Of a DNA stretch of 64,000 nucleotides, positions 5,866 to 57,564 are shown in pieces (position 1 is the first letter of the stretch; each line of letters begins with the position of its first letter). The position numbers were made by a program, and so were the translations under genes. The notes under the pieces were generated by a model. The model was not told the origin of the DNA and did not search any database. It worked only from the letters and a program-made list of their open reading frames with translations. This stretch comes from Sphingomonas sp. HMP6 (GTDB lineage Bacteria > Pseudomonadota > Alphaproteobacteria > Sphingomonadales > Sphingomonadaceae), in assembly GCF_013374095.1 (NCBI RefSeq), contig NZ_AP022672.1, forward strand, positions 1,611,501 through 1,675,500, in the 5' to 3' direction.

Positions 5866-8175
5866 CTACCGCTTCTTGCCCTGATGCCGGATGTTGGCCG
5901 GTCGACCGCGATGCTTGATCACGCGTTTCGGGCCGCGTTGGTCGCGCTCCGGTCGCTCGCCCCGTCCCTCGACCATCTCGAAGCGGAGAGCGCCCGATAC
6001 CGGGTTCGCCTCGGCGAGGCGTAGCGGCAGTTTCTGGCCGCTCGCGAACACCGTGCCGGTCTGATCGCCGATCAGCGTTCGGCTCGCCTCGTCGAAGCGG
6101 AAATACTCGCCCCCCAGATCGCGCACCGGCATCAGCCCGTCGCCGCCGATCCCCTCGACGGTGGCGAAGAAGCCGAAATTGGTGACGCCGGTGATGCGCG
6201 TCTCCAGCACTTCGCCGACCTTTTCGGACAGGAATGCCGCGACATAACGGTCGATCGTGTCGCGCTCGGCCTCCATCGCGCGGCGCTCCAGCATCGAGAT
6301 GCTCTCGCCGATCTTGTCCATCGACGCCGCCTCGCCCTCGCTTAGACCGCCCGGCCCGAGATCGTACGCCGCGACCAGCGACCGGTGTACGAGCAGATCG
6401 GCATAGCGCCGGATCGGCGAGGTGAAGTGGCCATAACTCCCCAGCGCCAGCCCGAAATGGCCTATATTGGCGGGCGCATAATAAGCCTGCGTCTGCGTGC
6501 GCAGGACTTGCTCCATAATCTGCGGCCGCTCGTCGCGGTCGATCACCGTGTCGAGGATCTGGTTGAAGGTCTTGGGCCGCACCACCTGCCCGAGCGCGAA
6601 CTCAATTCCAAAGGTCTTGAGATAGTCCTTGAGCGCGACAAGCTTCTCGCGGCTCGGCGCTTCGTGGACGCGGTACATGACCGGGGCTTTCTTCGCCTCC
6701 AGCGCCTTGGCCGCCGCAACGTTGGCGGCGATCATGTAATCCTCGATCAGCCGCATCGAATCGAGCCGCTCGCGCGGGGCGACCGAGAGAATGCGCCCCT
6801 TCTCGTCGAGCACCACGCGGCGTTCCGGCAGATCGAGGTCCAGCGGCGCGCGGGCGGTGCGGGCCTTATAGAGCGCCTTCCAGCAAGCCCAGAGCGGGAG
6901 GAGGATTTGCCTTAGCCCCTCCCCTTCAGGGGAGGGATTGGGGTGTGGCTGTGCCGACATCCCGCCGTCGAATTGAGGCACGGCCGCACCCCCAACCCCT
7001 CCCCTGAAGGGGAGAGGCTTATTGTCGATCGCCGCCTGCGCATCCTCATACGCAATATTCGCCGCGATCCGCACCACCGCGCGGGTGAAGCGCCAGGATT
7101 TCAGCGCGCCACCCTTCCCAACCTGCAAATGGCAAACGAGCGCTGCACGATCGACGCCCTCTTTGAGCGAACACATTTCCGCCGAAAGGCTCTCGGGGAG
7201 CATCGGCACGACGCGGTCGGGGAAGTACACACTGTTCCCGCGCCGCCGCGCCTCGCGGTCAAGGCTCGATCCGGGGCGGACGTAGAAAGAGACGTCGGCA
7301 ATCGCGACGATCGCTTTCCAGCCGCCTTCGTTGGCAGGATCATCGTCGGGTGCCGCCCAGACGGCATCGTCATGATCGCGCGCGTCAGCCGGATCGATCG
7401 CGACGATCGGGAGGTGGCGCAAGTCTTCTCGCCCCGCGCCCAGCGGTTGCCCCGCAACCCGCACCGCTTCGTCCAACGTTTCGGCCGAAAACACGTCGGG
7501 AATGCCGAGCTTGTGGATCGCGATCAGTGAAAAGCTGCGCGGCGCGAACGGATCGCCCAGCACTTGGGTGACGCGCACCGTCATTCGCGGCGGGCGTCCA
7601 GCAAGTTCGGCCAGCACCAGATCGCCGACCTGCGCATCACCCGCGTCCGACACCACGAATTCGCGGCGTTCCTTCTTCTCCACCCCTTGCAGCCACAGCG
7701 TTGCGCCTTCCTGACGCAGCACCCCGAGTACCAGCTCCTCGCCCTTGGGCAGCACCTTCATGGGATGCGCGATCAGGCCGTTTCCGGCTTCTTCCGTCCG
7801 CGCCAGCACGCGGTCGCCAATGCCCAGCGCACCGCGCTTGCGTTCGCGCACCCGCAATCGGGGGGCAGGTGTGTCGGCATCCCAGCGTTCAGGCACCGCC
7901 CACACCGTACCGCTGTCGTCGACATCGGCGATGCGCAGCACGGTGACTTTGGGCACGCCGCCCATCTTGTGAAACGCGCGGCCGGGCGCTGCATCAATCA
8001 GCCCCTCGTCGCCCATATCCTTGAGCAGCGCCTTCAAGAGGATCTTGTCCTGCGCCGACAGGCCGAACGCCTTGGCGATCTCGCGTTTGCCGGCCGGCGC
8101 CGGCGACGCCGCGATGAAGGCGAGGATCTGCTCGCGCGTTGGCAGGCCGGGGGTTTGCTTTGGGGATTTGGACAT
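5866..8175 (-). CDS. rnr: Ribonuclease R (3'-5' exoribonuclease)
   Basis: A 769-aa RNase II/R family exoribonuclease that degrades structured RNA 3' to 5'. An N-terminal winged-helix region and cold-shock domains precede the RNB catalytic domain, which shows the metal-binding aspartates in IDPADARDHDDAVWA. A C-terminal S1 domain (ETRITGVTNFGFF) and a strongly basic tail typical of RNase R follow. The ATG at 8175 gives the expected MSKSPKQTP N-terminus; a TTG at 8205 is a less likely alternative, and neither has a strong Shine-Dalgarno. Oddity: residues about 386-421 are encoded by an in-frame GC-rich palindrome in the RNB domain, making this loop longer than expected. The frame stays open and conserved blocks resume on both sides, so the enzyme is probably functional. 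Confidence 0.95.
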   Translation of the reverse strand: MSKSPKQTPGLPTREQILAFIAASPAPAGKREIAKAFGLSAQDKILLKALLKDMGDEGLIDAAPGRAFHKMGGVPKVTVLRIADVDDSGTVWAVPERWDADTPAPRLRVRERKRGALGIGDRVLARTEEAGNGLIAHPMKVLPKGEELVLGVLRQEGATLWLQGVEKKERREFVVSDAGDAQVGDLVLAELAGRPPRMTVRVTQVLGDPFAPRSFSLIAIHKLGIPDVFSAETLDEAVRVAGQPLGAGREDLRHLPIVAIDPADARDHDDAVWAAPDDDPANEGGWKAIVAIADVSFYVRPGSSLDREARRRGNSVYFPDRVVPMLPESLSAEMCSLKEGVDRAALVCHLQVGKGGALKSWRFTRAVVRIAANIAYEDAQAAIDNKPLPFRGGVGGAAVPQFDGGMSAQPHPNPSPEGEGLRQILLPLWACWKALYKARTARAPLDLDLPERRVVLDEKGRILSVAPRERLDSMRLIEDYMIAANVAAAKALEAKKAPVMYRVHEAPSREKLVALKDYLKTFGIEFALGQVVRPKTFNQILDTVIDRDERPQIMEQVLRTQTQAYYAPANIGHFGLALGSYGHFTSPIRRYADLLVHRSLVAAYDLGPGGLSEGEAASMDKIGESISMLERRAMEAERDTIDRYVAAFLSEKVGEVLETRITGVTNFGFFATVEGIGGDGLMPVRDLGGEYFRFDEASRTLIGDQTGTVFASGQKLPLRLAEANPVSGALRFEMVEGRGERPERDQRGPKRVIKHRGRPANIRHQGKKR
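6913..7020. repeat. Palindromic element inserted in frame within rnr
   Basis: Arms at about 6913-6948 and 6985-7020 are near-perfect reverse complements. Each is itself a hairpin built on CCCCTCCCCTTCAGGGGAGGG. It encodes about 36 residues of low-complexity peptide, including PFRGGVGG and HPNPSPEGEG on the rnr frame. Its length keeps the frame. It resembles other GC-rich palindromes in this window that lie between genes. Confidence 0.85.
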
Positions 8176-31748: not shown

Positions 31749-31822
31749 GTGCTCCGGCGAAGGCCGGAGCCTTGGCCGGGGGAGCCACACCCATCCCAGC
31801 GCTCCGGCCTTCGCCGGAGCAC
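31749..31822. repeat. Palindrome with 22-bp perfect arms
   Basis: Arms 31749-31770 and 31801-31822 are exact reverse complements, and each arm is itself a GCTCCGGC-GAAG-GCCGGAGC hairpin. It separates the convergent yihA and OsmC genes and may terminate transcription from both sides. The arm matches the hairpin at 28979. Confidence 0.9.
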
Positions 31823-37518: not shown

Positions 37519-37549
37519 AGAATCCTCCCCCGCCAGGGGGGGGATTCTA
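37519..37549. repeat. Hairpin between convergent SET and hybrid kinase genes
   Basis: AGAATCCTCCCCC-GCCA-GGGGGGGGATTCT with one mismatch. The first 20 nt match the start of the inverted repeats that flank the DUF559 gene at 50484 and 50973. It probably also terminates both convergent transcripts. Confidence 0.8.
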
Positions 37550-44986: not shown

Positions 44987-45113
44987 GCCGTTCGCCTGCG
45001 CCTTCCGCGATGAATGTGGTCTGTCCCGGTCCCCTGCCAAGGCCCGAACTTCCAAGGGTGACACTCGCCCAACGCACAGGTAGGGCAGCGCGACCATTTC
45101 CAGGAGACTCCCC

Positions 45114-45830
45114 ATGCGCCCATCAGGCCGCACCCCCGACCAGATGCGCACGATCAGCATCGAGCCGCGCTTCACCAAACATGCCGAAGGATCGGTGCTG
45201 ATCGGCTTCGGCGAGACCAAAGTGCTCGTCACCGCCTCGATCGAGGAAAAGGTGCCGCCGTTCCTGCGTGGTAAGGGCGAGGGCTGGGTCACGGCCGAAT
45301 ACGGCATGTTGCCGCGCGCCACGCATACGCGCGGGTCGCGTGAAGCGGCGAAGGGTAAACAATCAGGTCGAACGCAGGAAATTCAGCGGCTTATCGGCCG
45401 ATCCTTGCGCGCGGTGACCGATCTCAAGCTGCTCGGCGAGCGCCAGATCGTCCTCGATTGCGACGTGATCCAGGCCGATGGCGGCACCCGCACCGCCTCG
45501 ATCTCGGGCGCATGGGTCGCGCTGCGCCTCGCGATCGACGGATTGATGGCGAGCGGCAAGCTCACCGCCGACCCGCTGACGCAGAAGGTCGCGGCGATCT
45601 CGTGCGGCATCTTCAAGGGCACGCCGGTGCTCGATCTCGACTATGACGAGGATTCGAACGCCGACGCCGACGCCAATTTCGTGCTGCTCGAAAACGGCAA
45701 TATCGCCGAAGTCCAGGCGACGGCCGAGGGCGCAACCTATGACGAGGAGGCGCTGCTCCGGCTGCTCCGCCTTGCGCGCATCGGCTGCACCGACATCTTC
45801 GCCGCGCAAGCCACGGCCGTCGGGAAATGA
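45114..45830 (+). CDS. rph: Ribonuclease PH
   Basis: A 238-aa phosphorolytic 3'-5' exoribonuclease that trims tRNA 3' ends. [20 protein letters not shown], the [19 protein letters not shown] block and [14 protein letters not shown] are family landmarks. AGGAG lies 8 nt before the ATG. The stop overlaps the rdgB start (ATGA), a frequent pairing in proteobacteria. Confidence 0.97.
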
Positions 45831-46459
45831 GCGAGGTCGCACCGCAAGCGATCCGCAAGCTCGCCCCCGGCAAGCTGGTGATCGCCACGCACAATGCCGG
45901 CAAGGTCAAGGAAATCCGCGCCTTGCTCGCGCCGTTCGGTATCGACGCGATTTCAGCGGGCGAGCTCGATTTGCCCGAGCCCGAGGAAACCGGCACGACC
46001 TTCGTCGCCAATGCCGAACTGAAGGCGCTCTACGCCGCCGATCTGTCGGGCCTCCCCGCGCTCGCCGACGATAGCGGGCTGTGCGTCGAGGCGCTGAACG
46101 GCGATCCCGGCGTCTACACTGCGAACTGGGCCGAAACAGCGGACGGCACGCGCGACTGGGCACTGGCAATGGGCAAGGTCGAGGACAAGCTCACCACGCT
46201 CGGCCCCGATACCAGCCGCTCGGCGCATTTCGTCAGCACGCTCGCGCTCGCCTGGCCCGACGGCCATGTGCAATGGTTCGAGGGGCGGATCGACGGCACG
46301 CTGATCTGGCCGCCGCGCGGGGACATGGGCTTCGGCTACGACCCGATGTTCGTGCCCGAGGGCGACACGCGCACCTATGCCGAAATGCCGTTCGAGGAAA
46401 AACAGGCCAACAACCACCGCGCCAAGGCGTTTGCGCAGCTGATCGCGGCGGTGCTCTGA
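45827..46459 (+). CDS. rdgB: dITP/XTP pyrophosphatase (RdgB/HAM1)
   Basis: A 210-aa house-cleaning enzyme that hydrolyses non-canonical purine triphosphates. The [13 protein letters not shown] motif near the start, [20 protein letters not shown] with the metal-binding acidic pair, and [15 protein letters not shown] are intact. Co-translated with rph through a 4-nt overlap. Confidence 0.97.
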
Positions 46460-46476
46460 ACGATCTTGCGATATCT

Positions 46477-46500
46477 CCACCCCGGCGAAGGCCGGGGTGG
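46477..46500. terminator. Perfect 10-bp hairpin between convergent rdgB and CAP genes
   Basis: CCACCCCGGC-GAAG-GCCGGGGTGG, symmetrical and GC-only. It lies midway between two convergent stops, so it can serve as a bidirectional terminator. The same arm sequence opens the repeat at 48269. Confidence 0.65.
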
Positions 46501-46513
46501 CGTCGATGCGACC

Positions 46514-47071
46514 TCAGTCCTCCACCCGCCGCCCCACCACATTCCCCGGCGGCGTGTAGCGGCACACCAGATAATCGTCGCGTCGGCTGCTCGCCAGCGC
46601 GCAGCCGACCTGCGTCGTGCGCCGCCAGATGATCTGCGTATAGTGCCCGACATCCTGCCAGCGTCCGGTGGTGCTGATGTCCGGCACCGCCCCTGCGCGA
46701 TAGAAACGGCGCTCCTCAACCCACAGCCGCGCCATCTCATCGTAACGATATGCCCCGCGCGATCCCATGAAGAGGTTCTCCCCCTCCGGCACCGCACCGC
46801 GTGGTTCGGTCGAGTGTTTGAACTGCTCGCTCGTGGCCAGGACAGCGGCGTAGCGTGCCGCGTCGCGCGCAAGATCATCGCTCCACACCAGCGGCGGCGC
46901 GCCGACTGCAGCACGCGCGGCGTTGTGCTCGGTCAGCATCGCGCGCCGCAGCAGCGCTCCGCCGCGCGCCGCCGACGCAGCGTCGGGCCGCGGCTCGACG
47001 ACCCGCGACGGACGATCGTCCGTCCCGGCCGAACAGCCGACCAACAGCAACGCCAGCACCAAAAACCGCAT
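46514..47071 (-). CDS. CAP/SCP domain lipoprotein
   Basis: A 185-aa exported protein. ATG 47071 has GAGGAG upstream. The signal MRFLVLALLLVGCSAG contains a lipobox (LVGC), so it is probably lipid-anchored. The CAP domain shows MLTEHNAARAAVGAPPLVW, GENLFMG, WVEERRF, and GHYTQIIWRRTTQVGCA, the classical CAP signatures including the His/Glu cluster. Bacterial members are of unknown function, with links to cell envelope or defence. Convergent with rdgB. Confidence 0.9.
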   Translation of the reverse strand: MRFLVLALLLVGCSAGTDDRPSRVVEPRPDAASAARGGALLRRAMLTEHNAARAAVGAPPLVWSDDLARDAARYAAVLATSEQFKHSTEPRGAVPEGENLFMGSRGAYRYDEMARLWVEERRFYRAGAVPDISTTGRWQDVGHYTQIIWRRTTQVGCALASSRRDDYLVCRYTPPGNVVGRRVED

Positions 47072-47109
47072 CTTTCGCAATCTCCTCAGGGCGGCCATAG
47101 CACGGCGCG

Positions 47110-48264
47110 ATGAACCCCGCCCAAACCGATCCGCTCGCGCTCTACGTCCACTGGCCGTTCTGCGTGTCGAAATGCCCCTATTGCGACTTCAACAGCCATG
47201 TCCGCGAGAGTGTCGACCAGGCGGCGTGGCGCGAAGCCTTGCTCGCGGATCTCGCCTATGAAGCGGCGGCATTGCCGGGGCGGCGCTTGGGCTCGATCTT
47301 CTTCGGCGGCGGCACGCCCTCGCTCATGCCGCCCGCGACGGTGGCGGCGGTGATCGACGCCGCGACCGGGCATTGGGCCGCCGAGGACGACATCGAAATC
47401 ACGCTTGAGGCCAACCCCTCCTCGGTCGAGGCCGCGCGCTTCGCCGACATCGCCCGCGCCGGGGTCAACCGCGTGTCGCTCGGGTTGCAGGCGCTCGATG
47501 ATGCGGCGCTCGGCTTCCTTGGCCGCGCGCATGACGTGGCCGAGGGGCTGGCCGCACTCGACACCGCGCAAGCCGCCTTCGCGCGCGTCAGCTTCGACCT
47601 GATCTACGCCCGCCCCGGTCAATCGCTCGGCGACTGGCACGGCGAGCTGACCCGCGCGCTGTCGTTCGGCACCGAACATCTCTCGCTCTACCAGCTCACC
47701 GTCGAGCAAGGCACGCGCTTCGCCACCGACGAACGCGAAGGGCGGCTGACCCTGCCCGACCCCGACTACGCCGCCGATTTGTTCGAACTGACGCGCGAGA
47801 CCACCGCACGCGCCGGGCTGCCGGCCTATGAAATCTCCAACCACGCGCGGCTGGGCGCGGAGAGCCGCCACAATCTCGTCTATTGGCGCTACCGCGACTA
47901 TGCCGGGGTCGGCCCCGGCGCACACGGGCGACGCGGCGGTCTGGCCACCGCGCGGCACAAGAAGCCCGAGAATTGGATCAATGCCGTCGCCCGCAACGGC
48001 CACGGCGCGCAGATCGAAGAGCCGCTGGTCCCGAGCGAGCGCGCGACCGAGGCGTTGCTGATGGGGCTGCGATTGCGCGAGGGGGTGGATCTCGCGCGAA
48101 TCGCTGGGTTGGGCGAGACGTCGGTGGATGCGCTGATCGACTGGGCCGCGGCCGCACGGCTGGAGGCGCAGGGCTTGCTCGCGCGCGATGGGGAGCATCT
48201 TACGGTCACCGACGCGGGGATGCTCCTTCTCGACGCAATTCTGCCTTTGATCGTCAAAGCATAG
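47110..48264 (+). CDS. hemW: Radical SAM heme chaperone HemW
   Basis: A 384-aa HemN-like radical SAM protein. The cluster motif FCVSKCPYCDFNSHV (Cx3Cx2C) is near residues 18-25, followed by IFFGGGTPSLMPP and the VSLGLQALDD block. It lacks the N-terminal extension of true HemN and fits HemW, which binds heme and supplies it to target proteins. Divergent from the CAP lipoprotein with only 38 bp between starts. Confidence 0.94.
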   Translation: MNPAQTDPLALYVHWPFCVSKCPYCDFNSHVRESVDQAAWREALLADLAYEAAALPGRRLGSIFFGGGTPSLMPPATVAAVIDAATGHWAAEDDIEITLEANPSSVEAARFADIARAGVNRVSLGLQALDDAALGFLGRAHDVAEGLAALDTAQAAFARVSFDLIYARPGQSLGDWHGELTRALSFGTEHLSLYQLTVEQGTRFATDEREGRLTLPDPDYAADLFELTRETTARAGLPAYEISNHARLGAESRHNLVYWRYRDYAGVGPGAHGRRGGLATARHKKPENWINAVARNGHGAQIEEPLVPSERATEALLMGLRLREGVDLARIAGLGETSVDALIDWAAAARLEAQGLLARDGEHLTVTDAGMLLLDAILPLIVKA

Positions 48265-48268
48265 CTCC

Positions 48269-48368
48269 ACCCCGGCGAAGGCCGGGGCCCAGTTGCGCAG
48301 TGGCGGTTGGAGAGCAACACGCTCGCTTCCTCGCCCTCGCAACTAAGCCCCGGCCTTCGTCGGGGTGG
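48269..48368. repeat. Palindromic element between hemW and LpoA-like gene
   Basis: CCACCCCGGCGAAGGCCGGGG near 48269 faces CCCCGGCCTTCGTCGGGGTGG near 48348-48368 as an inverted copy. It separates convergent genes. Confidence 0.8.
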
Positions 48369-48394
48369 CAAAAAGGGGAATTAAAGGCGGGGCC

Positions 48395-49603
48395 TTACCC
48401 CCCGAACCCACCCGGCGCAGGCGACACCGTCACCGTCGTCCCCCCGCGAATTTCCTGCACCTCCAGCGCCCGCTCCGCGACATTGTCGCGCCCGAAGCGG
48501 AACGCGCCGTCGATCCCGGCAAAGCCGCCCCGGTCGTGCAGGCGGTCTTCCGGGAACGGCGCGCCGATCGGCCAATCGCGCATGATGCGGATCGTCAGCA
48601 GCACCGAATCATACCCGAGGCTCGACAGCCGGAACGGCGCGACGCCGAAGCGCGCGCGATATTTGGTGGCATATTGACGGTACAGCCCGTCCGAAACGCT
48701 GGCGAACCACGCGCCTTCCAGCGCGGGCTTGCTCGCGATCGACGATTCCGAATTCCACAGCTCCGTGCCGAGCACGCGCGCGCCGCCCATACCGTTCTTG
48801 CGCAGCACCGGCACACCCGCCGCCGCCATGCCGCCGCCATCGGCGATCAGGATCGCCTGATACGGCGCGCTCTTGGTCAGGCGGAGGATCGCTGCGGTCA
48901 TCGATCCGCTGGCCCGGTCATAGGTCTGCAGCGATCCGACGCGCCCGCCCGCCGTCTCGACCGCGCGCAGGAACGCGGTCGATGCGCGCTCGCCATACAT
49001 GCCGTTGGGCACCAGCGCACCGAAACTCGTCACGCCCTTGTCGCGCGCATAATCGACCACGCGCGCCACCGATTGCGCGGGCACATAGCCCATCAGATAG
49101 GCGCCGTTACCGGCCACCGACGAATCGTTGGAGAAGCTGACCACCGGCACTCCGGCGCGTCGCGCGATCGGTGTCACCGCGCGCACGTCCTCCGCCAGCA
49201 ACGGCCCGAGGATCAGTTGCGCGCCATCGGCCAGCGCCTTTTGCGTGGAAAGCGCAGCGCCGCCCGCAGTGTCGTAGGTCGTAATGCGGACGCGGTCGTT
49301 CCCCGAATCGAGCAAAGCAAGCTGAGTCGCATTGGCAAGACTTTGCCCGACGCCCGCATTCGGACCCGTCAGCGGCACGAGCAACGCGACGCGATGCCGC
49401 TGCGAATCGCTCGGAATGCCCTGTTCGACGATCGGCTGTTGCGGCTGGGCCGGACGCACCACCGGAGGACGCCGCACCGGCGCGGGGCCGCGCGGAACGA
49501 CCGTCTGACAGCCGCCGAGCACGAGCGCGCCGGCCGCCGCAAACACGCCTGCAAAGCGCCGCCAGCTACTCGGCAATTGCCCTATCGATACCCGCTCTGC
49601 CAT
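48395..49603 (-). CDS. Penicillin-binding protein activator, LpoA-like lipoprotein
   Basis: A 402-aa lipoprotein. ATG 49603 has AGGAG at 7-nt spacing. The N-terminus ends in a lipobox (GALVLGGC). A proline-rich linker leads to a type I periplasmic-binding fold: RVALLVPLTGPNAGVGQSLANATQLAL and GAQLILGPLLAEDVRAV. It corresponds to the C-terminal domain of LpoA, which stimulates PBP1A in E. coli. Its neighbours rsmI and yraN match the E. coli rsmI-lpoA-yraN locus, supporting the call, although here it is divergent from rsmI. Confidence 0.85.
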   Translation of the reverse strand: MAERVSIGQLPSSWRRFAGVFAAAGALVLGGCQTVVPRGPAPVRRPPVVRPAQPQQPIVEQGIPSDSQRHRVALLVPLTGPNAGVGQSLANATQLALLDSGNDRVRITTYDTAGGAALSTQKALADGAQLILGPLLAEDVRAVTPIARRAGVPVVSFSNDSSVAGNGAYLMGYVPAQSVARVVDYARDKGVTSFGALVPNGMYGERASTAFLRAVETAGGRVGSLQTYDRASGSMTAAILRLTKSAPYQAILIADGGGMAAAGVPVLRKNGMGGARVLGTELWNSESSIASKPALEGAWFASVSDGLYRQYATKYRARFGVAPFRLSSLGYDSVLLTIRIMRDWPIGAPFPEDRLHDRGGFAGIDGAFRFGRDNVAERALEVQEIRGGTTVTVSPAPGGFGG

Positions 49604-49614
49604 GACCGCTCCTG

Positions 49615-50472
49615 ATGACATCTGTTCTTACACCGCATTTGGCCCCGGGCCTCTACATCGTTGCCACCCCGATCGGCAATCTCGGTGATCTGTCGCCGCG
49701 TGCCGCACACATCCTGAGCCATGCCGCTGTAATCGCAGTCGAAGACAGCCGCGTTACGGGCAAACTCCTCAACCATATCGGCGTCAAGCGCCCGATGACG
49801 CCGTATCACGACCATAATGCCGAGGACGTCCGCCCCGGCCTCATCGCGCGGATGGGCATGGAGGCGGTGGCGTTGGTGTCGGACGCGGGCACGCCGCTGA
49901 TTTCCGATCCCGGCTATAAATTGGTCCGCGATGCGCGCGCGGCGGGGCATACCGTTTGGACGATCCCCGGCCCGTGCGCGGCGGTCGCGGCGCTGACGCT
50001 GGCGGGCTTGCCGACCGATCGTTTTATGTTCCTCGGCTTCCTCCCCTCCAAGGCCCAAGCCCGCGCCGCCGCCATCGCCGAGGTCGCGGGCATCCGCGCA
50101 ACGCTGGTGCTGTACGAATCGGGTCCGCGTTTGGCCGTGACCCTCGGCGCGCTCGCCGAAGGCCTGGGCGACCGCGAGGCAGCGGTGACGCGCGAAATCA
50201 CCAAGCATTTCGAGGAAGCCGTAACCGGAACGCTGTCCGATCTCGCCGCCCGCTACGCCGATGCGCCGCCCAAGGGCGAGATCGTGCTGGTCATCGCCCC
50301 GCCCGGCGCGCCTCAGGCAGCGAGCGCAGCGGACGCCGACGCCGCACTCGCCGAGGCGCTCACCCGCCTCTCGACCGGACAAGCGGCGAGCGAAGTGGCC
50401 AAGGCACTGGGGGTGGACCGCAAGGCGCTGTACGCACGGGCGCTGGAGATGAAGGGGGTTGGCAGTCGCTGA
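49615..50472 (+). CDS. rsmI: 16S rRNA 2'-O-ribose C1402 methyltransferase RsmI
   Basis: A 285-aa SAM-dependent methyltransferase. LYIVATPIGNLGDLSPRAAHIL and VALVSDAGTPLISDPGYKLV are diagnostic, as is GIPGPCAAVAAL-like TIPGPCAAVAALTLAGL. It modifies the ribosomal P-site. The ATG at 49615 lies 11 bp from the start of the divergent LpoA-like gene, so each promoter must lie within or very near the other gene. Confidence 0.95.
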   Translation: MTSVLTPHLAPGLYIVATPIGNLGDLSPRAAHILSHAAVIAVEDSRVTGKLLNHIGVKRPMTPYHDHNAEDVRPGLIARMGMEAVALVSDAGTPLISDPGYKLVRDARAAGHTVWTIPGPCAAVAALTLAGLPTDRFMFLGFLPSKAQARAAAIAEVAGIRATLVLYESGPRLAVTLGALAEGLGDREAAVTREITKHFEEAVTGTLSDLAARYADAPPKGEIVLVIAPPGAPQAASAADADAALAEALTRLSTGQAASEVAKALGVDRKALYARALEMKGVGSR

Positions 50473-50483
50473 CACCTCGAAGA

Positions 50484-50541
50484 AATCCTCCCCCGCCAGG
50501 GGGAGGTGGCGCCGAAGGCGACGGAGGGGGAGGTCAGCGAT
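50484..50541. repeat. Left inverted palindrome of the DUF559 cassette
   Basis: Contains the hairpin CCTCCCCC-GCCA-GGGGGAGG, a second small hairpin GCC-GAA-GGC (50511-50519), and GACGGAGGGGGAGGT (50520-50534). Its inner end overlaps the first base of the DUF559 stop codon. Confidence 0.88.
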
Positions 50542-50915
50542 CAGCCCTGAAACTGGCACCGTCGCTCAACCGCGACCGCGATAATCTGGCGCGCAACGCT
50601 TTCGAAGTCGCGCAGCACGTCGCTCGCGGGATACCGAACTACGAGCAGCCCGAGCGCGGCGAGTTGCACATCGCGCCGCGCATCCCGCAACGGCCGGTCG
50701 CCCCTACCATGCGCCTCGCCGTCAACCTCGATGGCGAGGCGTGCAGGCGCGCAATAGAAATCCAGAACATAATCCCCGACCCCATGCTGCTTGCGGAAAC
50801 GCAGCCCTTCGGCGTTTTGACGGAGCGCGAGCCAGAGTGCGATTTCGGGCGGCGTCATCTCACGCCGGAGCTTTTTTGCGTTGCGTTTCCCGCTGGGTGA
50901 CCCTTCCAAGCGCAT
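50541..50915 (-). CDS. DUF559 (Vsr-like PD-(D/E)XK) endonuclease-domain protein
   Basis: A 124-aa protein of the DUF559 family, related to the very-short-patch repair endonuclease fold. Key residues are TPPEIALWLALR (E24), FRKQHGVGDYVLDFYC (D52) and LAIEVDGEAHG (E63, D65), the expected nuclease pattern. ATG 50915 has GGGGAGGT at about 5-nt spacing; this Shine-Dalgarno is part of the right inverted palindrome. An internal ATG (50858) is possible but would start inside the domain edge. The gene is bracketed by inverted repeats, which suggests that the nuclease may act on or spread with these elements. No methyltransferase or mutL is adjacent. Confidence 0.85.
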   Translation of the reverse strand: MRLEGSPSGKRNAKKLRREMTPPEIALWLALRQNAEGLRFRKQHGVGDYVLDFYCAPARLAIEVDGEAHGRGDRPLRDARRDVQLAALGLLVVRYPASDVLRDFESVARQIIAVAVERRCQFQG

Positions 50916-50973
50916 CGCCGACCTCCCCCTCCGTCACGCTTCGCGTGCCACCTCCCCCTGGCGGGGGAGGATT
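50915..50973. repeat. Right inverted palindrome of the DUF559 cassette
   Basis: The reverse complement of 50921-50973 matches the left copy at both ends, but the centre reads ACGC-GAA-GCGT instead of GCC-GAA-GGC, so the hairpin is kept by paired changes. It carries the ribosome-binding site for the DUF559 gene. Beyond it, 50974-51265 shows no gene. Confidence 0.88.
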
Positions 50974-51265
50974 ATGCAGCACCAGTCGCTTCCCCACTAA
51001 TCCCACGACATTCCGCTGTCCTACTCACCCCCACTCTGCCACCCTCGCCATCCGCTTTTTCAAACTGTCGAACAGCCCCAAACCGCGCGCCCGGCAAACG
51101 GCGCGGATGCCTAACTTTTGTGACTTTGGCCGCACGCAAGCCGCCGGATAGACCCACCGATGGTGCGACTCTGTGGGACTTTAAGCCCGGGAACTGATCG
51201 CGCGCAGTGGACCCCTGCACGAGGCCGGAGTGACGAATTCGCGTTGAAGGCGGGAGCGCCTTCTT

Positions 51266-51366
51266 ACTCCCCTCCCGCTTGCGGGAGGGGTTGGGGGAGG
51301 GCATGTCAGGGCTGTGCCCCGTCCCAACAGCCCCTCCCCTAGCCCCTCCCGCAAGCGGGAGGGGAA
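51266..51366. repeat. CTCCC/GGGAG palindrome overlapping the yraN start
   Basis: Arms CCCCTCCCGC-TT-GCGGGAGGGG (about 51269-51290) and CCCCTCCCGC-AA-GCGGGAGGGG (about 51343-51364), with inverted flanks GTTGGGGGAGGG and CCCCTCCCCTAGC. Nearly identical to the copy at 52806-52906. The right half is translated as the N-terminus of YraN. Confidence 0.88.
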
Positions 51367-51718
51367 TCCTAAGCGCCAAGCCGCCGAAGCCTCCGGCCGC
51401 CGGGGGGAGCGCCTCGCCGGGTGGTGGCTGCGGCTGAAGGGCTGGCGCATCCTCGCCCGGCGCGTACGCACCCCTGCCGGAGAGGTCGATCTGGTCGCGA
51501 AGAAGGGCAATCTCGTCGCCTTCGTCGAAGTGAAACTGCGCAAGACCGCCGCCGAGCTCGATTTCGCGATCGACGAACGCCGCCTGGCCCGCGTCGCGGC
51601 GGCGGCGGAATATCTGATGCCGACCTATGCCGGGCCGGGCGATGACATCCGCGTCGATGTCATCCTGATCGCACCGGGCGTGCGGCCACGCCATATCGAG
51701 AACGCTTGGATTGGCTAG
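51314..51718 (+). CDS. YraN family (UPF0102) putative nuclease
   Basis: A 134-aa protein. The conserved part is RRGERLAGWWLRLKGWRILARRVRTPAGEVDLVAKKGNLVAFVEVKLRK, with the Glu, Asp and ExK of the Holliday-junction-resolvase-like nuclease fold. The first 20 residues (SPSPSPSRKREGNP) are encoded by a palindrome and are not normal for the family. No ATG, GTG or TTG exists in frame between the palindrome and the conserved part, so GTG 51314 inside the palindrome is the only visible start. Family function is unsettled. It belongs to the rsmI-lpoA-yraN neighbourhood. Confidence 0.87.
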   Translation: MPRPNSPSPSPSRKREGNPKRQAAEASGRRGERLAGWWLRLKGWRILARRVRTPAGEVDLVAKKGNLVAFVEVKLRKTAAELDFAIDERRLARVAAAAEYLMPTYAGPGDDIRVDVILIAPGVRPRHIENAWIG

Positions 51719-51745
51719 GTGACAAAACGCATCACACCACCCACC

Positions 51746-51840
51746 TTCCGTTCGGGCTGAGCTTGTCGAAGCCCTGCCCTTCGCTCTAACGCCCCAAAAG
51801 AAGAACAGCCCTTCGACAAGCTCAGGGCGAACGGAAGGTT
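51746..51840. repeat. TGTCGAAG-family palindrome upstream of gshB
   Basis: Arms 51746-51778 and 51808-51840 are reverse complements with few mismatches. The end of the right arm (GGAAGG, 51835-51840) is the nearest Shine-Dalgarno-like sequence to the gshB ATG at 51849. Confidence 0.9.
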
Positions 51841-51848
51841 AGTCTGCC

Positions 51849-52805
51849 ATGTCCCTCACCGTCGCCGTCCAGATGGACCCGATCGCGCACATCAACATCG
51901 CAGGCGATTCGACCTTCGCGCTGATGCTCGCGGCGCAGGCGCGCGGGCATAGACTGTTCCATTACACCGCCGAGGACCTGAACTATGCCGACGGACGCGT
52001 CTGGGCGAAGGCCGATCCGGTCACGGTGCAGCGTGTCGTCGGCGACCATTACAGCTTTGGCGACCCCGTCAGCCTCGATCTCGGCGACGAAGCCGACGTG
52101 ATCCTGATGCGGCAGGACCCGCCCTTCGACCTCGGCTACATCACCGCCACACACCTGCTCGAACGGATCGCGCACAAAACGCTCGTGGTGAACGATCCGG
52201 CCAGCGTGCGGAATGCCCCCGAAAAGGTGTTCGTGCTCGATTATCCGCAATTCATGCCGCCGACGCTCGTCACCCGCAGCCTCGACGAAGCGCGCGCCTT
52301 CCTCGCGAAGCACAAAGAAATCGTCGTCAAACCGCTCCACGGCAATGGCGGCAAGGCGATCTTCAAGGTCGGGTCGGACGGCGCGAATCTCTCGGCGCTG
52401 ATCGAAGTGTTCAACACGATGTGGCGCGAACCGCATATGGTGCAGGCGTTCCTGCCCGACGTGGCCAAGGGCGACAAGCGCATCGTCCTGGTCGATGGCG
52501 AGGTTGCGGGCGCGATCAACCGCTTGCCCGGCGAAGGCGAAATCCGCTCCAACCTCGCAGTCGGCGGGTCGGCGGTCGCGACCGAGCTGACCGCCAAGGA
52601 ACGCGAGATTTGCGCGGTGCTCGGGCCAGAACTCAAGCGGCGCGGGCTGCTGTTCGTCGGCATCGACGTGATCGGCGGCGAATGGCTGACCGAGATCAAC
52701 GTCACCTCCCCCACCGGCATCGTCGCGATCGAAAAGTTCGACGGAACCGATGTCGCCGGGCTGATCTGGGACGCGATCGAGCGCAAGGTCGCGGCGCGTG
52801 CGTGA
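51849..52805 (+). CDS. gshB: Glutathione synthetase
   Basis: A 318-aa ATP-grasp enzyme that joins gamma-glutamylcysteine and glycine. MSLTVAVQMDPIAHINIAGDSTFALMLAAQARGH, VILMRQDPPFDLGYITATHLLE, VVKPLHGNGGKAIFKV and LTEINVTSPTGI are strong family markers. It supplies glutathione used by the GSTs seen elsewhere in the window. Confidence 0.96.
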   Translation: MSLTVAVQMDPIAHINIAGDSTFALMLAAQARGHRLFHYTAEDLNYADGRVWAKADPVTVQRVVGDHYSFGDPVSLDLGDEADVILMRQDPPFDLGYITATHLLERIAHKTLVVNDPASVRNAPEKVFVLDYPQFMPPTLVTRSLDEARAFLAKHKEIVVKPLHGNGGKAIFKVGSDGANLSALIEVFNTMWREPHMVQAFLPDVAKGDKRIVLVDGEVAGAINRLPGEGEIRSNLAVGGSAVATELTAKEREICAVLGPELKRRGLLFVGIDVIGGEWLTEINVTSPTGIVAIEKFDGTDVAGLIWDAIERKVAARA

Positions 52806-52906
52806 AACTCCCCTCCCGCTCGCGGGAGGGGCTGGGGGAGGGCCTGTACAATACACATCGCCCAACAGCCCCTCCCCTGACCCCTCCCGCAAGCGGGAGG
52901 GGAATT
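52806..52906. repeat. CTCCC/GGGAG palindrome between gshB and the DedA gene
   Basis: Arms about 52806-52842 and 52869-52906, nearly the same as 51266-51366 and with a similar CAACAGCCCCTCCCCT junction, so the two are recent copies of one element. It begins inside or right after the gshB stop region and ends 4 bp before the DedA ATG. Confidence 0.9.
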
Positions 52907-52910
52907 TGGC

Positions 52911-53510
52911 ATGACCGACTTCATCGTCAATCTCACCGCATGGGGCGGATATTTCGGCATTTTCCTGTTGATGGTGCTCGAAAACGTGTTCCCGCCAATC
53001 CCGTCCGAAGTCATCATGGGGCTCGGCGGCATCGCGGTCGCGCGCGGGCAGATGGAGATGCTGCCGCTGATCATCGCGGGCACCGCGGGCACGGTCGCGG
53101 GTAATTACTTCTGGTATGCGATCGGGTGGCGCTTCGGCTACCAACGGCTGCGCCCGTTCGTAGATCGCTATGGCGCGTGGCTCACGCTCGATTGGGAGCA
53201 TGTCGTACAGCTCGAACGCTTCTTCAAACGCCGCGGGCAATGGGTCGTCTTCGTGTTCCGCTTCATGCCCGCTTTCCGCACGATGGTGTCGCTCCCGGCC
53301 GGCATGGCGCGGATGCCGCATCTGCGCTTCCTGCTGTGGACGGCGGCGGGATCGGCAATCTGGAACACCGGCCTTGCCTACGCGGGCCTGTATCTCGGCA
53401 GCAACTTCCGCGAACTCGACGCCTATATCGGCCCGGCGGCCATCGCGCTGACCGTCGCGATCGTCATCGGTTACGTCTGGCGGCTGCTGCGCTGGAAGCC
53501 GCGCGGCTGA
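52911..53510 (+). CDS. DedA family membrane protein
   Basis: A 199-aa inner-membrane protein of the DedA/SNARE-associated family. ENVFPPIPSEVIMGLGG, GTVAGNYFWYAIGWRFG, and FVFRFMPAFRTMVSLPAGMARM, with the conserved Arg residues, are typical. DedA proteins support membrane homeostasis, and some flip undecaprenyl phosphate. The start codon lies just after a palindrome that may supply the GAGGGG upstream. About 400 bp separate gshB and the next metabolic gene. Confidence 0.93.
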   Translation: MTDFIVNLTAWGGYFGIFLLMVLENVFPPIPSEVIMGLGGIAVARGQMEMLPLIIAGTAGTVAGNYFWYAIGWRFGYQRLRPFVDRYGAWLTLDWEHVVQLERFFKRRGQWVVFVFRFMPAFRTMVSLPAGMARMPHLRFLLWTAAGSAIWNTGLAYAGLYLGSNFRELDAYIGPAAIALTVAIVIGYVWRLLRWKPRG

Positions 53511-53597
53511 CGCGATGTGCTGCACTGCGGTGGAAACCGCGCGCGGCACTTCCTATCTGGCATCCATCGCGGGGAGATCACCGCTGGAGCATCAATC

Positions 53598-54275
53598 ATG
53601 AAAATTCTTATCGTCCTCACCTCGCACGACCAGCTCGGCGACACCGCGGCCAAGACCGGCTTCTGGCTCGAAGAGCGGGCCGCGCCCTATTATGTCCTGA
53701 AGGCGGCGGGAGCCGATCTTACGCTGGCCTCGCCCAAGGGTGGACAGCCGCCGCTCGACCCGAAGAGCGCCGACGAAAGCGCCAAGACCGACGACACCCG
53801 CCGCTTCGAAGCCGATGCCGAGGCGACCGCCCAGCTCGCCAGCACCGTCCGGCTCGATTCGGTGAAGCTCGAAGATTTCGACGCGATCTTCTATCCCGGC
53901 GGCCACGGCCCGCTGTGGGATCTGGCCGAAGACGCCACCTCGCGCGCGCTGATCGAAGGCGCGATCGCGGCTGACAAGCCGGTTGCGCTCGTCTGCCATG
54001 CGCCCGGCGTGCTGCGCCATGTGAAGGCCGCCGATGGCACGCCGTTGGTGTCGGGCAAGAAGGTCACCGGCTTCACCAACACCGAGGAAGCCGCAGTCGG
54101 TTTGACCGATGTGGTGCCGTTCCTGGTCGAGGATATGCTGACGCAGAATGGCGGCATCTTCTCGAAGACCGGCGATTGGGGCGTGCATGTCGTGCGCGAC
54201 GGCCTGCTGATCACCGGGCAGAACCCGGCCTCGTCGGGCGCGGCGGCGACCGCCTTGGTCGAGGCGCTGGCCTGA
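53598..54275 (+). CDS. DJ-1/PfpI family protein (type 1 glutamine amidotransferase domain)
   Basis: A 225-aa protein of the DJ-1/PfpI superfamily, Hsp31-like branch. TGFWLEERAAPYYVLKAAGADLTLASPKGG, the FYPGGHGPLWDL segment, and the nucleophile elbow ALVCHAPGVL with its Cys are intact. Such proteins act as glyoxalase III-type or deglycase enzymes or chaperones. ATG 53598 has GGAG 9 nt upstream; the frame to 53517 is rejected. Confidence 0.92.
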   Translation: MKILIVLTSHDQLGDTAAKTGFWLEERAAPYYVLKAAGADLTLASPKGGQPPLDPKSADESAKTDDTRRFEADAEATAQLASTVRLDSVKLEDFDAIFYPGGHGPLWDLAEDATSRALIEGAIAADKPVALVCHAPGVLRHVKAADGTPLVSGKKVTGFTNTEEAAVGLTDVVPFLVEDMLTQNGGIFSKTGDWGVHVVRDGLLITGQNPASSGAAATALVEALA

Positions 54276-54314
54276 TACCGTTCGGCACCCGGATCGCCGC
54301 CGGGTGCCGACCCG

Positions 54315-55199
54315 TCACGCTCGCGGATGGGCGTTGCGATACACGTCCATCAAATGCGCCGCATCGACCTGGGTATAGACCTGCGTCGAGCTCAAACTCG
54401 CATGACCGAGCAGTTCTTGCAGCGCCCGCAAATCCGCCCCGCGCCCCAGCAAATGCGTGGCGAACGAATGACGCAGCGCATGCGGCGTCGTGCGATCGGG
54501 CAGCCCCAGCCGCACCCGCGCCTGCTGCACCGCGCGCCGCACCAACCGCGGGCTGAGCGGCCCGCCCTTGACCCCGCGAAAAATTGGCGCGTCGCGGGCG
54601 GTGCCATAGGGGCTCAGGCGGACATACGCCTCGATCGCCTCGCGCACTTGCGGCAGCAGCGGCACGATCCGCGTCTTGTCGCGCTTGCCCGTCACGCTGA
54701 GCGTCGCGCCGAGCGGCAACACCGCGCCGGTCAGCCCGAGCGCCTCGGCCACGCGCAACCCCGCGCCGTAGAGCAGCAGCAAAACCGCCAGATCGCGCGC
54801 GCCGATCCACGGTTCGGCGGCATCCTCGGCGACATCTTCGGCGAGCGCGACCGCCTCATCGGGCGAGACCGGGCGCGGCACGCCTTTCTTGACGCGCGGC
54901 CCTTTCAGGCGTGGCGTGGCGCCCTCGTCAGCGGCAAACGCCAGAAATCCGCGCACCGCCGACAATTCGCGCGCGGCCGACGCATTGCCCAGCCCCTCGG
55001 TGCGACGCATCGCGAGGAAGGCGCGCAGGTCGGCAGCGGTCACCTTGCCAAGCGCAGCGCGATCGATCGCGTCGCCCCAATGCTGGCTGAGGAAGCCACA
55101 CAGCCGCGTCGCGGTCGCCTCATAGGCGCGCACCGTATGCACCGAACGCCGCCGGTCGCGCGCCAGGTGATCGGCATAGAGGCGGGGGTGGTCGGACAT
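54315..55199 (-). CDS. xerC: Tyrosine recombinase XerC
   Basis: A 294-aa site-specific recombinase that resolves chromosome dimers at dif with XerD. The SAM-like N-terminal domain (RSVHTVRAYEATATRLCGFL) is followed by the catalytic core: Arg in LLYGAGLRVAEALGL, HALRHSFATHLLGRGADLRALQELLGH, and the Tyr of SSTQVYTQVD. ATG 55199 is preferred; GTG 55223 would add eight residues. Convergent with the DJ-1 gene and near priA. Confidence 0.94.
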   Translation of the reverse strand: MSDHPRLYADHLARDRRRSVHTVRAYEATATRLCGFLSQHWGDAIDRAALGKVTAADLRAFLAMRRTEGLGNASAARELSAVRGFLAFAADEGATPRLKGPRVKKGVPRPVSPDEAVALAEDVAEDAAEPWIGARDLAVLLLLYGAGLRVAEALGLTGAVLPLGATLSVTGKRDKTRIVPLLPQVREAIEAYVRLSPYGTARDAPIFRGVKGGPLSPRLVRRAVQQARVRLGLPDRTTPHALRHSFATHLLGRGADLRALQELLGHASLSSTQVYTQVDAAHLMDVYRNAHPRA

Positions 55200-55230
55200 T
55201 GCGGGTGGTGTAGCGAGCTTCACGCCCCTT

Positions 55231-55336
55231 CGTCACCCCGGCCTTGTGCCGGGGCCCACCACGCCGCCCGGTGAACGCCCGATATCGGGTGCTGCGCGCG
55301 CCGCACAGTGGACCCCGGCACAAGGCGGGGGTGACG
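55231..55336. repeat. Palindrome related to the one at 1332
   Basis: CGTCACCCCGGCCTTGTGCCGG (from 55231) and CCGGCACAAGGCGGGGGTGACG (to 55336) are inverted copies with one mismatch; the arm core CGTCACCCCGG matches the 1332 element. It lies between the divergent xerC and priA genes, where it must coexist with their promoters. Confidence 0.9.
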
Positions 55337-55374
55337 GTTAAGCCCCCCTTCACCCCGCCCCCCCAACCCGCCAT

Positions 55375-57564
55375 ATGCATCCCATGTCCCGCGCCCGCGT
55401 CCTCGTCCTGAACTCCGCGCTCGGCCCGCTCGATTACCGCGTGCCGCACGGCATGAGCGTCGAGCCAGGCTCGGTGGTGGTCGCCCCGCTCGGCCCGCGC
55501 CAGTTGCTCGGCGTGGTGTGGGAGCCTGAACGGATGCCCTCCGATGCCGAGGTCGGCGACAATCGCCTCCGCAATCTCGTCGGCGTACTCCCGGTCCCGC
55601 CGCTCGCCGCCCCCTTGCGCCGCCTGATCGAATGGACCGCCGATTATTACCTGGCCGCGCCCGCTGCGGTGGTCCGGATGGCCTTGTCGTCGACCTCGGC
55701 GCTGGAGGGCAGCAAGACGATCACCGAATATCGCGCAACCGGCGATTTGCCCGACCGCCTCACCCCGCAACGCCAACAGGCGCTGGAGCGGATCGGCGCG
55801 ACGCAAGGTTTGATCCGCGAACTCGCCGCGATCGCTGAAGTGTCCGACGCGGTCATCCGTGGCCTCGTCAAAACCGGCGCGCTCGAAGCAGTCGAGGTCG
55901 ACATCGACAGCCCCTTCCCCGCCCCCGACCCCGATTTCGCCGCCCCCGCACTCTCCCCCGACCAACGCGCCGCCTCCGCAACGCTGGTGGCAGACGTCAC
56001 CGCGCGCAGCTTCGCGCCCACCCTGCTCGACGGCGTCACCGGCTCGGGCAAGACCGAAGTCTATTTCGAAGCGGTCGCCGCCGCGATCCGCGACAACCGC
56101 CAATGCCTCGTCCTGCTCCCAGAAATCGCGCTGACCGAGCCGTTCCTCAAACGCTTCGCCGCGCGCTTCGGCGTTCAGCCGGTCGCATGGCACTCGGGCC
56201 TGCGCCAATCACAACGCCGCCGCGCGTGGCGGGGCATCGCCAGCGGGCAAGCGCTCGTCACGGTCGGCGCGCGCTCGGCGCTGTTTCTCCCTTATGCCAA
56301 TCTCGGCCTGATCGTCGTCGACGAAGCGCATGAGACGAGCTTCAAGCAGGAGGAAGGCGTCCACTACCACGCCCGCGACGTGGCGGTGATGCGCGGCAAG
56401 TTCGAGCAGATCCCCGTCATCCTCGCCTCCGCCACGCCGGCGATCGAAACGCGCCAGCAAGTCGCGCTCGGCCGCTATGCCGAGGTCAAATTGCCCGGCC
56501 GCTGGGGTGCGGCGGAAATGCCGAGCATCACCGCGATCGACTTGATCAAGGAACCGCCCGAACGCGGCCGCTGGATCGCGCCGCGCTTGCTCACCGCAAT
56601 GACCGAGACGCTGGAACGGCGCGAGCAAGTCCTGCTCTTCCTCAATCGCCGCGGCTATGCGCCCCTCACCCTGTGCCGCACCTGCGGCCACCGCTTCCAA
56701 TGCCCCAATTGCACCGCCTGGATGGTCGAGCACCGCCTGGTGCGCCGCCTCGCCTGCCACCATTGCGGCCATACCGAGCCGGTGCCGAAGGTCTGCCCCG
56801 AATGCCAGAATGAGGATACGCTCGCCGCCGTCGGCCCCGGGGTCGAGCGTATCGCCGACGAAGTCACCGCGCTCTTCCCCGACGCCAAGATCGCGGTCGT
56901 CACGTCGGACACGATGTGGTCCCCCGCCAAGGCCGCCGAATTCGTCGCCCGGATGGAGGCGCACGACATCGACATCGTCGTCGGCACGCAGCTCGTCACC
57001 AAGGGCTATCACTTCCCCAACCTCACGCTGGTAGGGGTGATCGACGCCGATCTCGGTCTCGACGGCGGCGATCTGCGCGCGAGCGAGCGCACCTTCCAGC
57101 AAATCATGCAGGTAGCGGGTCGCGCCGGGCGCGGTGCCAAGCCCGGCCATGTCTATATCCAGACGCACAGCCCCGATGCGAGCGTGATGAAGGCGCTGGT
57201 CTCGGGCGATGCCGAGGCGTTCTATGCCGCCGAAACCGAGCATCGCCGCGAGGCGGGCGCCCCGCCGTTCGGGCGCTTTGCCGGGATCGTCGTGTCGAGC
57301 GAGGATCAGGCCGCCGCGCTGGAAACCGCCCGCCTGATCGGTCGTGCCGCGCCCCACCCAGACACTTTGGACGGGGCGATGGAAGTCTACGGCCCCGCCC
57401 CCGCCCCGCTCGCGATGCTACGCGGGCGGCACCGCTACCGCTTGCTGGTCCATGCCAAGCGCGGATTGGACGTGCAGGACGTGATCCGCGACTGGCTCGG
57501 CGGCGTGGAATGGCCCGCTAAGGTGCGGGTGGTGGTCGATGTCGATCCGTACAGCTTTGTGTGA
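55375..57564 (+). CDS. priA: Primosomal replication protein N' (helicase PriA)
   Basis: A 729-aa DNA helicase for replication restart. The N-terminal 3'-DNA-binding domain is followed by Walker A GVTGSGKTEVYF, the DEAH box IVVDEAHETSFKQEEG, and a zinc-binding region with CRTCGHRFQCPNC and CHHCGH...CPEC. Helicase C motifs (QLVTKGYHFPNLTLVGVIDAD) follow. ATG 55375 or ATG 55384 are both possible starts. Full length for PriA. Confidence 0.97.
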   Translation: MHPMSRARVLVLNSALGPLDYRVPHGMSVEPGSVVVAPLGPRQLLGVVWEPERMPSDAEVGDNRLRNLVGVLPVPPLAAPLRRLIEWTADYYLAAPAAVVRMALSSTSALEGSKTITEYRATGDLPDRLTPQRQQALERIGATQGLIRELAAIAEVSDAVIRGLVKTGALEAVEVDIDSPFPAPDPDFAAPALSPDQRAASATLVADVTARSFAPTLLDGVTGSGKTEVYFEAVAAAIRDNRQCLVLLPEIALTEPFLKRFAARFGVQPVAWHSGLRQSQRRRAWRGIASGQALVTVGARSALFLPYANLGLIVVDEAHETSFKQEEGVHYHARDVAVMRGKFEQIPVILASATPAIETRQQVALGRYAEVKLPGRWGAAEMPSITAIDLIKEPPERGRWIAPRLLTAMTETLERREQVLLFLNRRGYAPLTLCRTCGHRFQCPNCTAWMVEHRLVRRLACHHCGHTEPVPKVCPECQNEDTLAAVGPGVERIADEVTALFPDAKIAVVTSDTMWSPAKAAEFVARMEAHDIDIVVGTQLVTKGYHFPNLTLVGVIDADLGLDGGDLRASERTFQQIMQVAGRAGRGAKPGHVYIQTHSPDASVMKALVSGDAEAFYAAETEHRREAGAPPFGRFAGIVVSSEDQAAALETARLIGRAAPHPDTLDGAMEVYGPAPAPLAMLRGRHRYRLLVHAKRGLDVQDVIRDWLGGVEWPAKVRVVVDVDPYSFV

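Follow-up and report, generated by a model that had tools for sequence, protein, structure and literature searches.

A 124-aa DUF559 gene together with the two inverted palindromes overlapping its ends was found to make up a 490-bp unit (50484-50973) in the window, i.e., the whole 64,000-nt stretch of Sphingomonas sp. HMP6 DNA analysed here, and the pairing of such a gene with inverted palindromes was confirmed to be general, extending beyond this focal locus. The comparison of loci showed, at the level of sequence, that gene and ends occur together, that the ends mostly constitute a matched inverted pair and that the palindrome type follows the nuclease clade. The cassette is very probably a mobile unit, and it is considered likely that the 490 bp represent an autonomous small mobile element, in which a Vsr-like DUF559 nuclease is enclosed by inverted palindromes of the triplex type.

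The focal cassette and the structure of its ends

The features identified in the window were as follows.

49615..50472, + strand: rsmI, left neighbour, outside the element
50484..50541, + strand: left end palindrome, type B2 (match to model R1 at 50487-50529)
50541..50915, - strand: DUF559 nuclease, 124 aa, Vsr-like PD-(D/E)XK / EDxHD-type (PF04480, E 3e-26)
50914..50973, - strand: right end palindrome, inverted copy of the left one (match to model R1 at 50926-50970)
51314..51718, + strand: yraN (UPF0102), right neighbour, outside the element
51269..51364, no strand assigned: gene-less inverted pair, type A2, the type also found at both ends of the host's DUF559 cassette L001
52810..52902, no strand assigned: second gene-less inverted pair, type A2
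37519..37549, no strand assigned: single hairpin, perhaps a collapsed pair (pair-to-single collapse was observed between S. meliloti strains)
6917..6950, + strand: single hairpin with a purine tail, partly decayed

From the outside towards the gene, the left B2 end consisted of a pyrimidine arm (Y-arm), a loop, a purine arm (R-arm), a small second hairpin and a mirrored purine tail. The outer arms of the two ends (50484-50510 and 50947-50973, 27 nt) displayed 100% inverted identity, and the inner arms (50520-50541 and 50914-50935, 22 nt) were 95% identical, with an exact match over 16 nt. The stop codon of the DUF559 gene overlapped the left arm and its ATG the right one, and the Shine-Dalgarno sequence was contained in the right palindrome copy (GGAGGTCGGCG-ATG). 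All these points bore out the preliminary description, which had placed the stop and start codons against two inverted copies of one palindrome, claimed identity of their arms and assigned the Shine-Dalgarno sequence to the right copy; the related single hairpin reported at 37519-37549 was also present. The two A2 gene-less pairs and the bracketing of six other host DUF559 genes were absent from that description.

The predicted start of yraN (51314-51368) fell inside the first A2 gene-less pair, which makes a true start further downstream probable. Inverted pairs of other GC-rich hairpins were noticed at 1336-1418 and 31751-31820, the former matching the CGTC-tagged REP dimer of alphaproteobacteria, a kind of repeat without a known transposase.

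The cassette ends in general were built, from the outside inwards, of a pyrimidine arm, a loop, a purine arm, a spacer and a purine tail, the spacer being two or three bases in type A and a small second hairpin in type B. Among 433 informative hairpins, the tail contained a perfect mirror of the purine arm in 237 and a perfect direct repeat in 116. A match of at least 6/8 between tail and arm was observed in 77% of cases with the hairpin's own arm, whereas swapped arms gave 54% (maximum 58%). A third strand mirroring the purine arm after the hairpin, which characterises the triplex motif, was accordingly found in the cassette ends. No conserved GTAG tag was noticed by eye in the listed end sequences.

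The second hairpin was fully paired in 13 distinct B1 rows, with two-sided changes at 3/7 pairs, in a set of 15/33 type-B ends selected to fit one hairpin length. In 41 distinct B1 second hairpins, 177 Watson-Crick, 19 G-T and 6 mismatched pairs were counted, 20/41 hairpins being fully Watson-Crick; the 19 G-T pairs led to the rejection of the idea that the second hairpin shuns such pairs. Many of the B2 second hairpins (50507-50525 and 50928-50950 here, and those of L005, L006, L029 and L058) resemble a CGTC-tagged REP in miniature, their complementary strand reading CGTC-hairpin-CCA; on that strand, most of the listed B2 copies had CGTC beside the second hairpin, with CCA following the hairpin.

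Triplex repeats of the BoxC/PIT kind have been known since the 1990s, and it is these repeats that the cassette ends match. The intrastrand triplex motif (BoxC/PIT/TM) has been described from more than 260 genomes, with 23 copies in E. coli MG1655 and five inverted pairs in E. coli, each uniting both second-loop types; triplex formation in vitro was reported for the E. coli motif, and the palindromes are associated with rearrangement in this species (PMC4666352). According to the same source, purine-motif triplexes are unable to form in RNA, and as a mirrored third strand is the requirement of an intrastrand triplex of this motif, the structure would be one of the DNA level. The cassette ends resemble BoxC/PIT as presented by Holder et al. 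(2015, PMC4666352) in the order of Y-arm, loop, R-arm, 2-3 nt and purine third strand, in the occurrence of some inverted pairs and in the wide distribution in bacteria, and differ from it in that the third strand is preceded by a second hairpin in the B types. A further difference is the gene between the ends, since that paper reports no nuclease or mobility gene for BoxC/PIT, does not use the terms 'endonuclease', 'Vsr' or 'DUF' in its main text, and states that no mobility genes and no transposase or integrase remnants were found around the E. coli triplex-motif sites.

Bracketing of DUF559 genes in the host and in other bacteria

Bracketing was scored as the best local match between the 220 nt upstream of a gene and the reverse complement of the 250 nt downstream, and a score of at least 16 was used as the threshold. 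The host genome (G000) contained eight DUF559 matches, one of which (L008) was part of a long protein. All seven free-standing genes were bracketed by inverted palindromes with a score of at least 16, L001 lying on the other strand. L005 and L006, located at distant sites and alike palindrome to palindrome, had one common palindrome type, and the remaining five host loci were of types different from it; five of the six bracketed host genes other than the focal one had palindrome types other than the focal type. Control genes, taken from 400 kb of the host genome only, reached 16 in 1/306 and 14 in 2/306 cases (median 9.5). With 7/7 host DUF559 genes bracketed versus 1/306 controls, the bracketing cannot be attributed to chance. 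A strict scan of the same 400 kb returned three palindrome pairs and one single hairpin of a different kind (L043), and cross-paired loci reached the threshold in 14-24%.

The first genus search gave 55 match rows, from which 48 loci were scored after five long-protein or fragment rows, the flankless L019 and one row representing the second half of L070 had been set aside; 45/48 reached at least 16. Twelve further genus genomes gave 38 matches, 3 of them in long proteins and excluded, and 31 of the 35 scored loci (24/28 and 7/7) passed the threshold. A class-wide draw outside the genus gave 70 matches, the 47 strongest full-length ones being taken and 46 scored (L106 lay at a contig end and the fragment L123 was left unscored), and 32/46 of these strongest alphaproteobacterial matches scored at least 16. 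The wider list comprised the best 80 of at least 565 matches, chosen by conserved peptide patterns, of which 79 were scored (L237 was flankless). Among these best 80 of at least 565, the threshold was reached by 32/37 alphaproteobacterial loci and by 34/41 loci of other phyla, the latter value being 35/42 before L244, an N-run artefact, was dropped, and the bracketed taxa beyond the class included Chloroflexota, WOR-3, Geobacteraceae, Binatia, a Clostridia MAG and Dyella.

In total, 174/207 loci scored at least 16, part of them coming from the best 80 of at least 565 matches and at least three being counted twice (L232/L081, L284/L091 and L301/L104); the shortened or stopped genes L067, L070, L071, L122, L165 and L349 were retained in the counts. 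The 33/207 loci below the threshold included the open genes L030, L162, L169 and L175. Palindromes therefore recur at the ends of most of the DUF559 genes scored, in keeping with the proposal made from the focal locus, with counter-cases in ycjD of E. coli and in five of eight named plasmid-collection loci. Only three of the latter reached 16 (L216, L217 and L219, from Sphingomonas parapaucimobilis, S. meliloti and Deinococcus proteolyticus); L213, L214, L215 and L220 scored 8.5-9 and L218 scored 12.5, purine-tailed hairpins being nonetheless visible on both sides of L218.

The DUF559 gene ycjD was located in the same place, with its surroundings, in 3362/5426 E. coli genomes. It is unbracketed, and a triplex palindrome begins 167 nt behind its stop codon. 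In two genomes without ycjD at that place, an efflux operon borders sapF or fabI. The 3' end of ycjD is apparently part-duplicated just downstream (L213, 1780-1915).

Within one genus, individual genomes had between 0 and 10 DUF559 matches, and several palindrome types were found side by side in a genome. A tblastn search with one DUF559 protein (L081) matched three phage records. L102 contained a DUF559 gene whose inverted ends, about 100 nt long, were AT-rich, unlike the GC-rich ends elsewhere.

Palindrome types, gene-less copies and their turnover

A tree of 101 DUF559 domains, built from few columns and with many open forks, gave 17 changes of palindrome type versus 56.5 after shuffling (lowest of 200 shuffles: 51). 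The labels were drawn from 124 loci, of which 28 were classed as 'none' by a regular expression, seven of these being then set by hand, and three ambiguous loci were resolved by hand; the 21 unlabelled rows and 2 stopped or short ones were left out. Within the genus (69 genes, 23 genomes), 8 type changes were counted, and shuffling within genomes raised this number to 36 (lowest of 300: 27), which indicates that the type goes with the gene and not with the host. Because the ends and the gene are physically linked, such congruence by itself could be due to hitchhiking. The counts of gene-less copies and the glyS series are independent of physical linkage.

Dispersed gene-less inverted pairs of cassette palindromes were present in the host and its relatives, and the best reading of them is that they would be REPIN-like non-autonomous copies. 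Copies were counted with a covariance model of the B1 end, the cassettes' own ends being included. The 15 genus genomes with a B-clade nuclease had 12-138 B-type palindromes each, versus 0, 1, 1, 2, 3, 5, 6, 8, 10 and 31 (median 4) in the 10 genus genomes without it (Mann-Whitney p 4e-5). The exception was G144, in which 31 B-type palindromes and no B-clade nuclease were found. In phylogeny-controlled pairs based on the rsmI tree, 4/4 differences were in the expected direction (p 0.125), and the 16 genomes of other families gave counts of 0, or of 3 in two genomes. G135, which has a B-clade nuclease, carried six gene-less pairs of its type, and its sister G134, without that nuclease, carried one match, in the partly matching pair L203. 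These counts showed a higher abundance of gene-less pairs in genomes that carry the corresponding nuclease clade.

The glyS gene (glycyl-tRNA synthetase beta) was searched for in 20 genus genomes; G141 gave no glyS match and the other 19 were read (L324-L342). Between two fixed conserved stretches, an in-frame gene-less pair was found in 13/19 genomes; depending on the species, it was of type B1 (four genomes) or of one of several A types (nine genomes). In 2/19 (G009 and G003), a CGTC-like dimer was present instead, and in 4/19 (G134, G001, G002 and G144) there was no pair and the stretch measured 24-27 nt only. All 19 stretches were multiples of three and free of stops. When the pairs were compared with DUF559 ends, those of the own genome ranked 1 of 24 genomes in 8/13 cases (one tie) and 2, 4, 6, 7 and 20 in the other five. 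The mean own-genome rank was 3.9 versus 10.6 by chance (lowest of 2000: 5.6), the CGTC-like insert of G003 having been kept in the test (n 14, rank 8). The kind of glyS pair tends to follow the resident nuclease, as judged from these ranks. Since pairs at one glyS site differ, are present or are missing, they come and go as units, whether by separate insertion or by exchange in place, and the turnover of pairs is well supported. One glyS codon position appears as a landing site common to two repeat classes.

In S. meliloti Ak57, a cassette and the adjoining ISRm16 are situated between two operon genes whose counterparts in Shinella lie directly side by side (82% and 81% identity, a cross-genus comparison), and in Sinorhizobium K101 the cassette is present without ISRm16. 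Among 24 loci read at the focal site, the cassette was found in G000 only. rsmI and yraN abutted or nearly abutted in seven (L126, L129, L130, L132, L136, L144 and L147), gene-less pairs lay in four (L125, L128, L133 and L137), and the remaining loci had a different sequence between the genes or no yraN nearby. The expectation that homologous loci would display a clean loss of the whole unit held for Shinella, across genera, and for the 4/19 glyS genes with respect to gene-less pairs, but not for two sister-species comparisons (G134/G135, intergenic), which gave no clean empty site. No direct transposition, target duplication or clean strain-level insertion of a cassette was found in the comparisons made.

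The comparison of S. meliloti strains revealed pair-to-single collapse and no new insertion; on pSymB (L227, L229 and L230) the pair was reduced to a single hairpin by deletion, with breakpoints differing between two strains. The pnt-operon cassette was common to 7 genus genomes, which implies that some copies are long inherited. In Azospirillum, a DUF559 gene had an insertion of about 1.1 kb at or beside a palindrome (L224, 1951-3115, in comparison with L214).

The nuclease, its proposed role and its relation to known systems

The DUF559 family profile found the solved relatives 3hrl and the mobile intron protein 3r3p (E 5.8e-6 for the latter). In 17 diverse members, E15, Q34, D43, E54, D56 and D69 were invariant and H60 near-invariant (L005 numbering), and L005, the close paralogue of the focal gene, has the family-invariant acidic and His positions. 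The kept acidic and His residues are presumably the active-site residues of EDxHD/Vsr enzymes, and by sequence kinship and conserved residues the DUF559 family belongs to this group. The Y1 transposase (PF01797) had no match in the host and none in 10/12 same-genus relatives. The earlier proposal of a REP-like system driven by a Vsr-like nuclease and not by a tyrosine transposase gains support from this result and from the 174/207 bracketed loci. That the nuclease moves the palindromes is what we infer from these data, and the DUF559 protein would probably be the mobilising enzyme of the element. The mechanism is offered tentatively as a nicking of folded single-stranded ends. The nuclease would read the palindrome as a folded single strand, composed of a hairpin and a purine third strand, and nick beside it, after which the pair or the whole cassette would be moved or copied to another site, replication or repair being the probable partner. 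A PADLOC search with the nuclease gave weak matches to DpdF (2e-5) and mREase_II (0.0066) only, and no anti-phage defence model fitted.

A function serving the host is suggested by Caulobacter VsrA, a DUF559 protein which is SOS-inducible, tied to a cytosine methylase and proposed to be a mismatch-repair nuclease (PMC12907096). Following this example, a Vsr-type mismatch- or structure-specific nuclease would be kept for the cell, with the palindromes as regulatory or processing sites, and the long residence of ycjD and of the pnt cassette would agree with it. Such a function is nevertheless unlikely in view of the 0 to 10 matches per genome within the genus with several palindrome types per genome, of the gene-less pairs within coding sequence and of the focal neighbours rsmI and yraN, no DNA cytosine methylase adjoining the gene in the manner of Vsr/VSP-type linkage. 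Kinship to 3r3p and the assignment of a DUF559 gene to the EDxHD homing family (PMC9403480) point to a homing-like spread, in which an EDxHD-type nuclease would cut sites lacking the unit and the unit would be copied in through recombination of the flanking homology. The enzymes indeed have sequence homology and common acidic and His residues; unlike the homing enzymes, the focal gene is a free-standing ORF between palindromes, not carried by an intron or a split gene (no Rfam match in the window at 45000-56000), and cassettes and palindromes occupy many different sites of one genome, which makes homing improbable.

The other two alternatives separate the palindromes from the nuclease. If palindromes were hot spots that draw in DUF559 genes and other insertions, the gene would be a passenger; palindromes of this sort are associated with rearrangement in E. 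coli (PMC4666352), and other insertions do occur at or beside them (ISRm16 in L217, about 1.1 kb in L224). Control genes, however, were bracketed in just 1/306 cases and the palindrome type is particular to each nuclease clade, so that this view is given very little credence. A different factor, such as an IS transposase, a RAYT or replication slippage, might spread the palindromes while DUF559 only protects or trims them. In its favour, 2/19 genomes have CGTC-like dimers, a kind of repeat known without a dedicated transposase, at the glyS site of the pairs, and a deletion can collapse a pair to a single hairpin. It is rendered improbable by the missing Y1 match in G000 and in 10/12 same-genus relatives, and by the way in which the abundance and type of the palindromes go with the DUF559 clade.

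In its layout, the proposed nuclease-driven element is close to the REP/REPIN-RAYT systems, with an enzyme gene within inverted palindromes and dispersed gene-less pairs, some of them inside genes. It differs from them in the enzyme, which is PD-(D/E)XK Vsr-like and not a Y1 HUH protein (TnpA-REP), and in the ends, which have a mirrored purine tail and in which no conserved GTAG tag was noticed by eye. The system is rated as new because both the enzyme and the ends differ from those of REP-RAYT; on a stricter view it could be treated as a REP-RAYT-like variant. No report joining DUF559 with these repeats was found among the open-access PMC papers searched, and the gene-less copies appear to be a widespread bacterial repeat class without a previously reported carrier gene. 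The idea of pan-bacterial autonomous elements, whose DUF559 protein would recognise and spread its own folded ends, with BoxC/PIT as non-autonomous offspring and ycjD as a domesticated last copy in E. coli, is slightly favoured. If true, BoxC/PIT triplex repeats would owe their origin to a dedicated nuclease gene present in many phyla, palindrome-mobilising elements would gain a further class of enzyme beside the RAYTs, a candidate protein reading an intrastrand DNA triplex would be at hand, and a role would be suggested for many genes named merely 'DUF559 domain-containing'.

Cassette-type palindromes inserted in frame within genes recall the Rickettsia palindromic elements (RPE), which are not known to be linked to a nuclease. 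RPE are in-frame palindromic insertions in genes, and CGTC-tagged REPs are palindromes that occur as dimers in alphaproteobacteria and have no known transposase (Di Nocera et al. 2013, PMC3733652). CGTC-like dimers occupied the glyS site in two genomes, and the CGTC-hairpin-CCA pattern is read in B2 ends on the complementary strand, so that the two classes of repeat may be akin; the main hairpin differs, and no DUF559 gene flanked by classical CGTC REPs was noticed among the loci read. In Legionella, a recombination hot spot is formed by a repeated segment that contains DUF559 along with a transposase (PMC12308824), which likewise places DUF559 in multi-copy recombining DNA, although that segment is larger and has a transposase.
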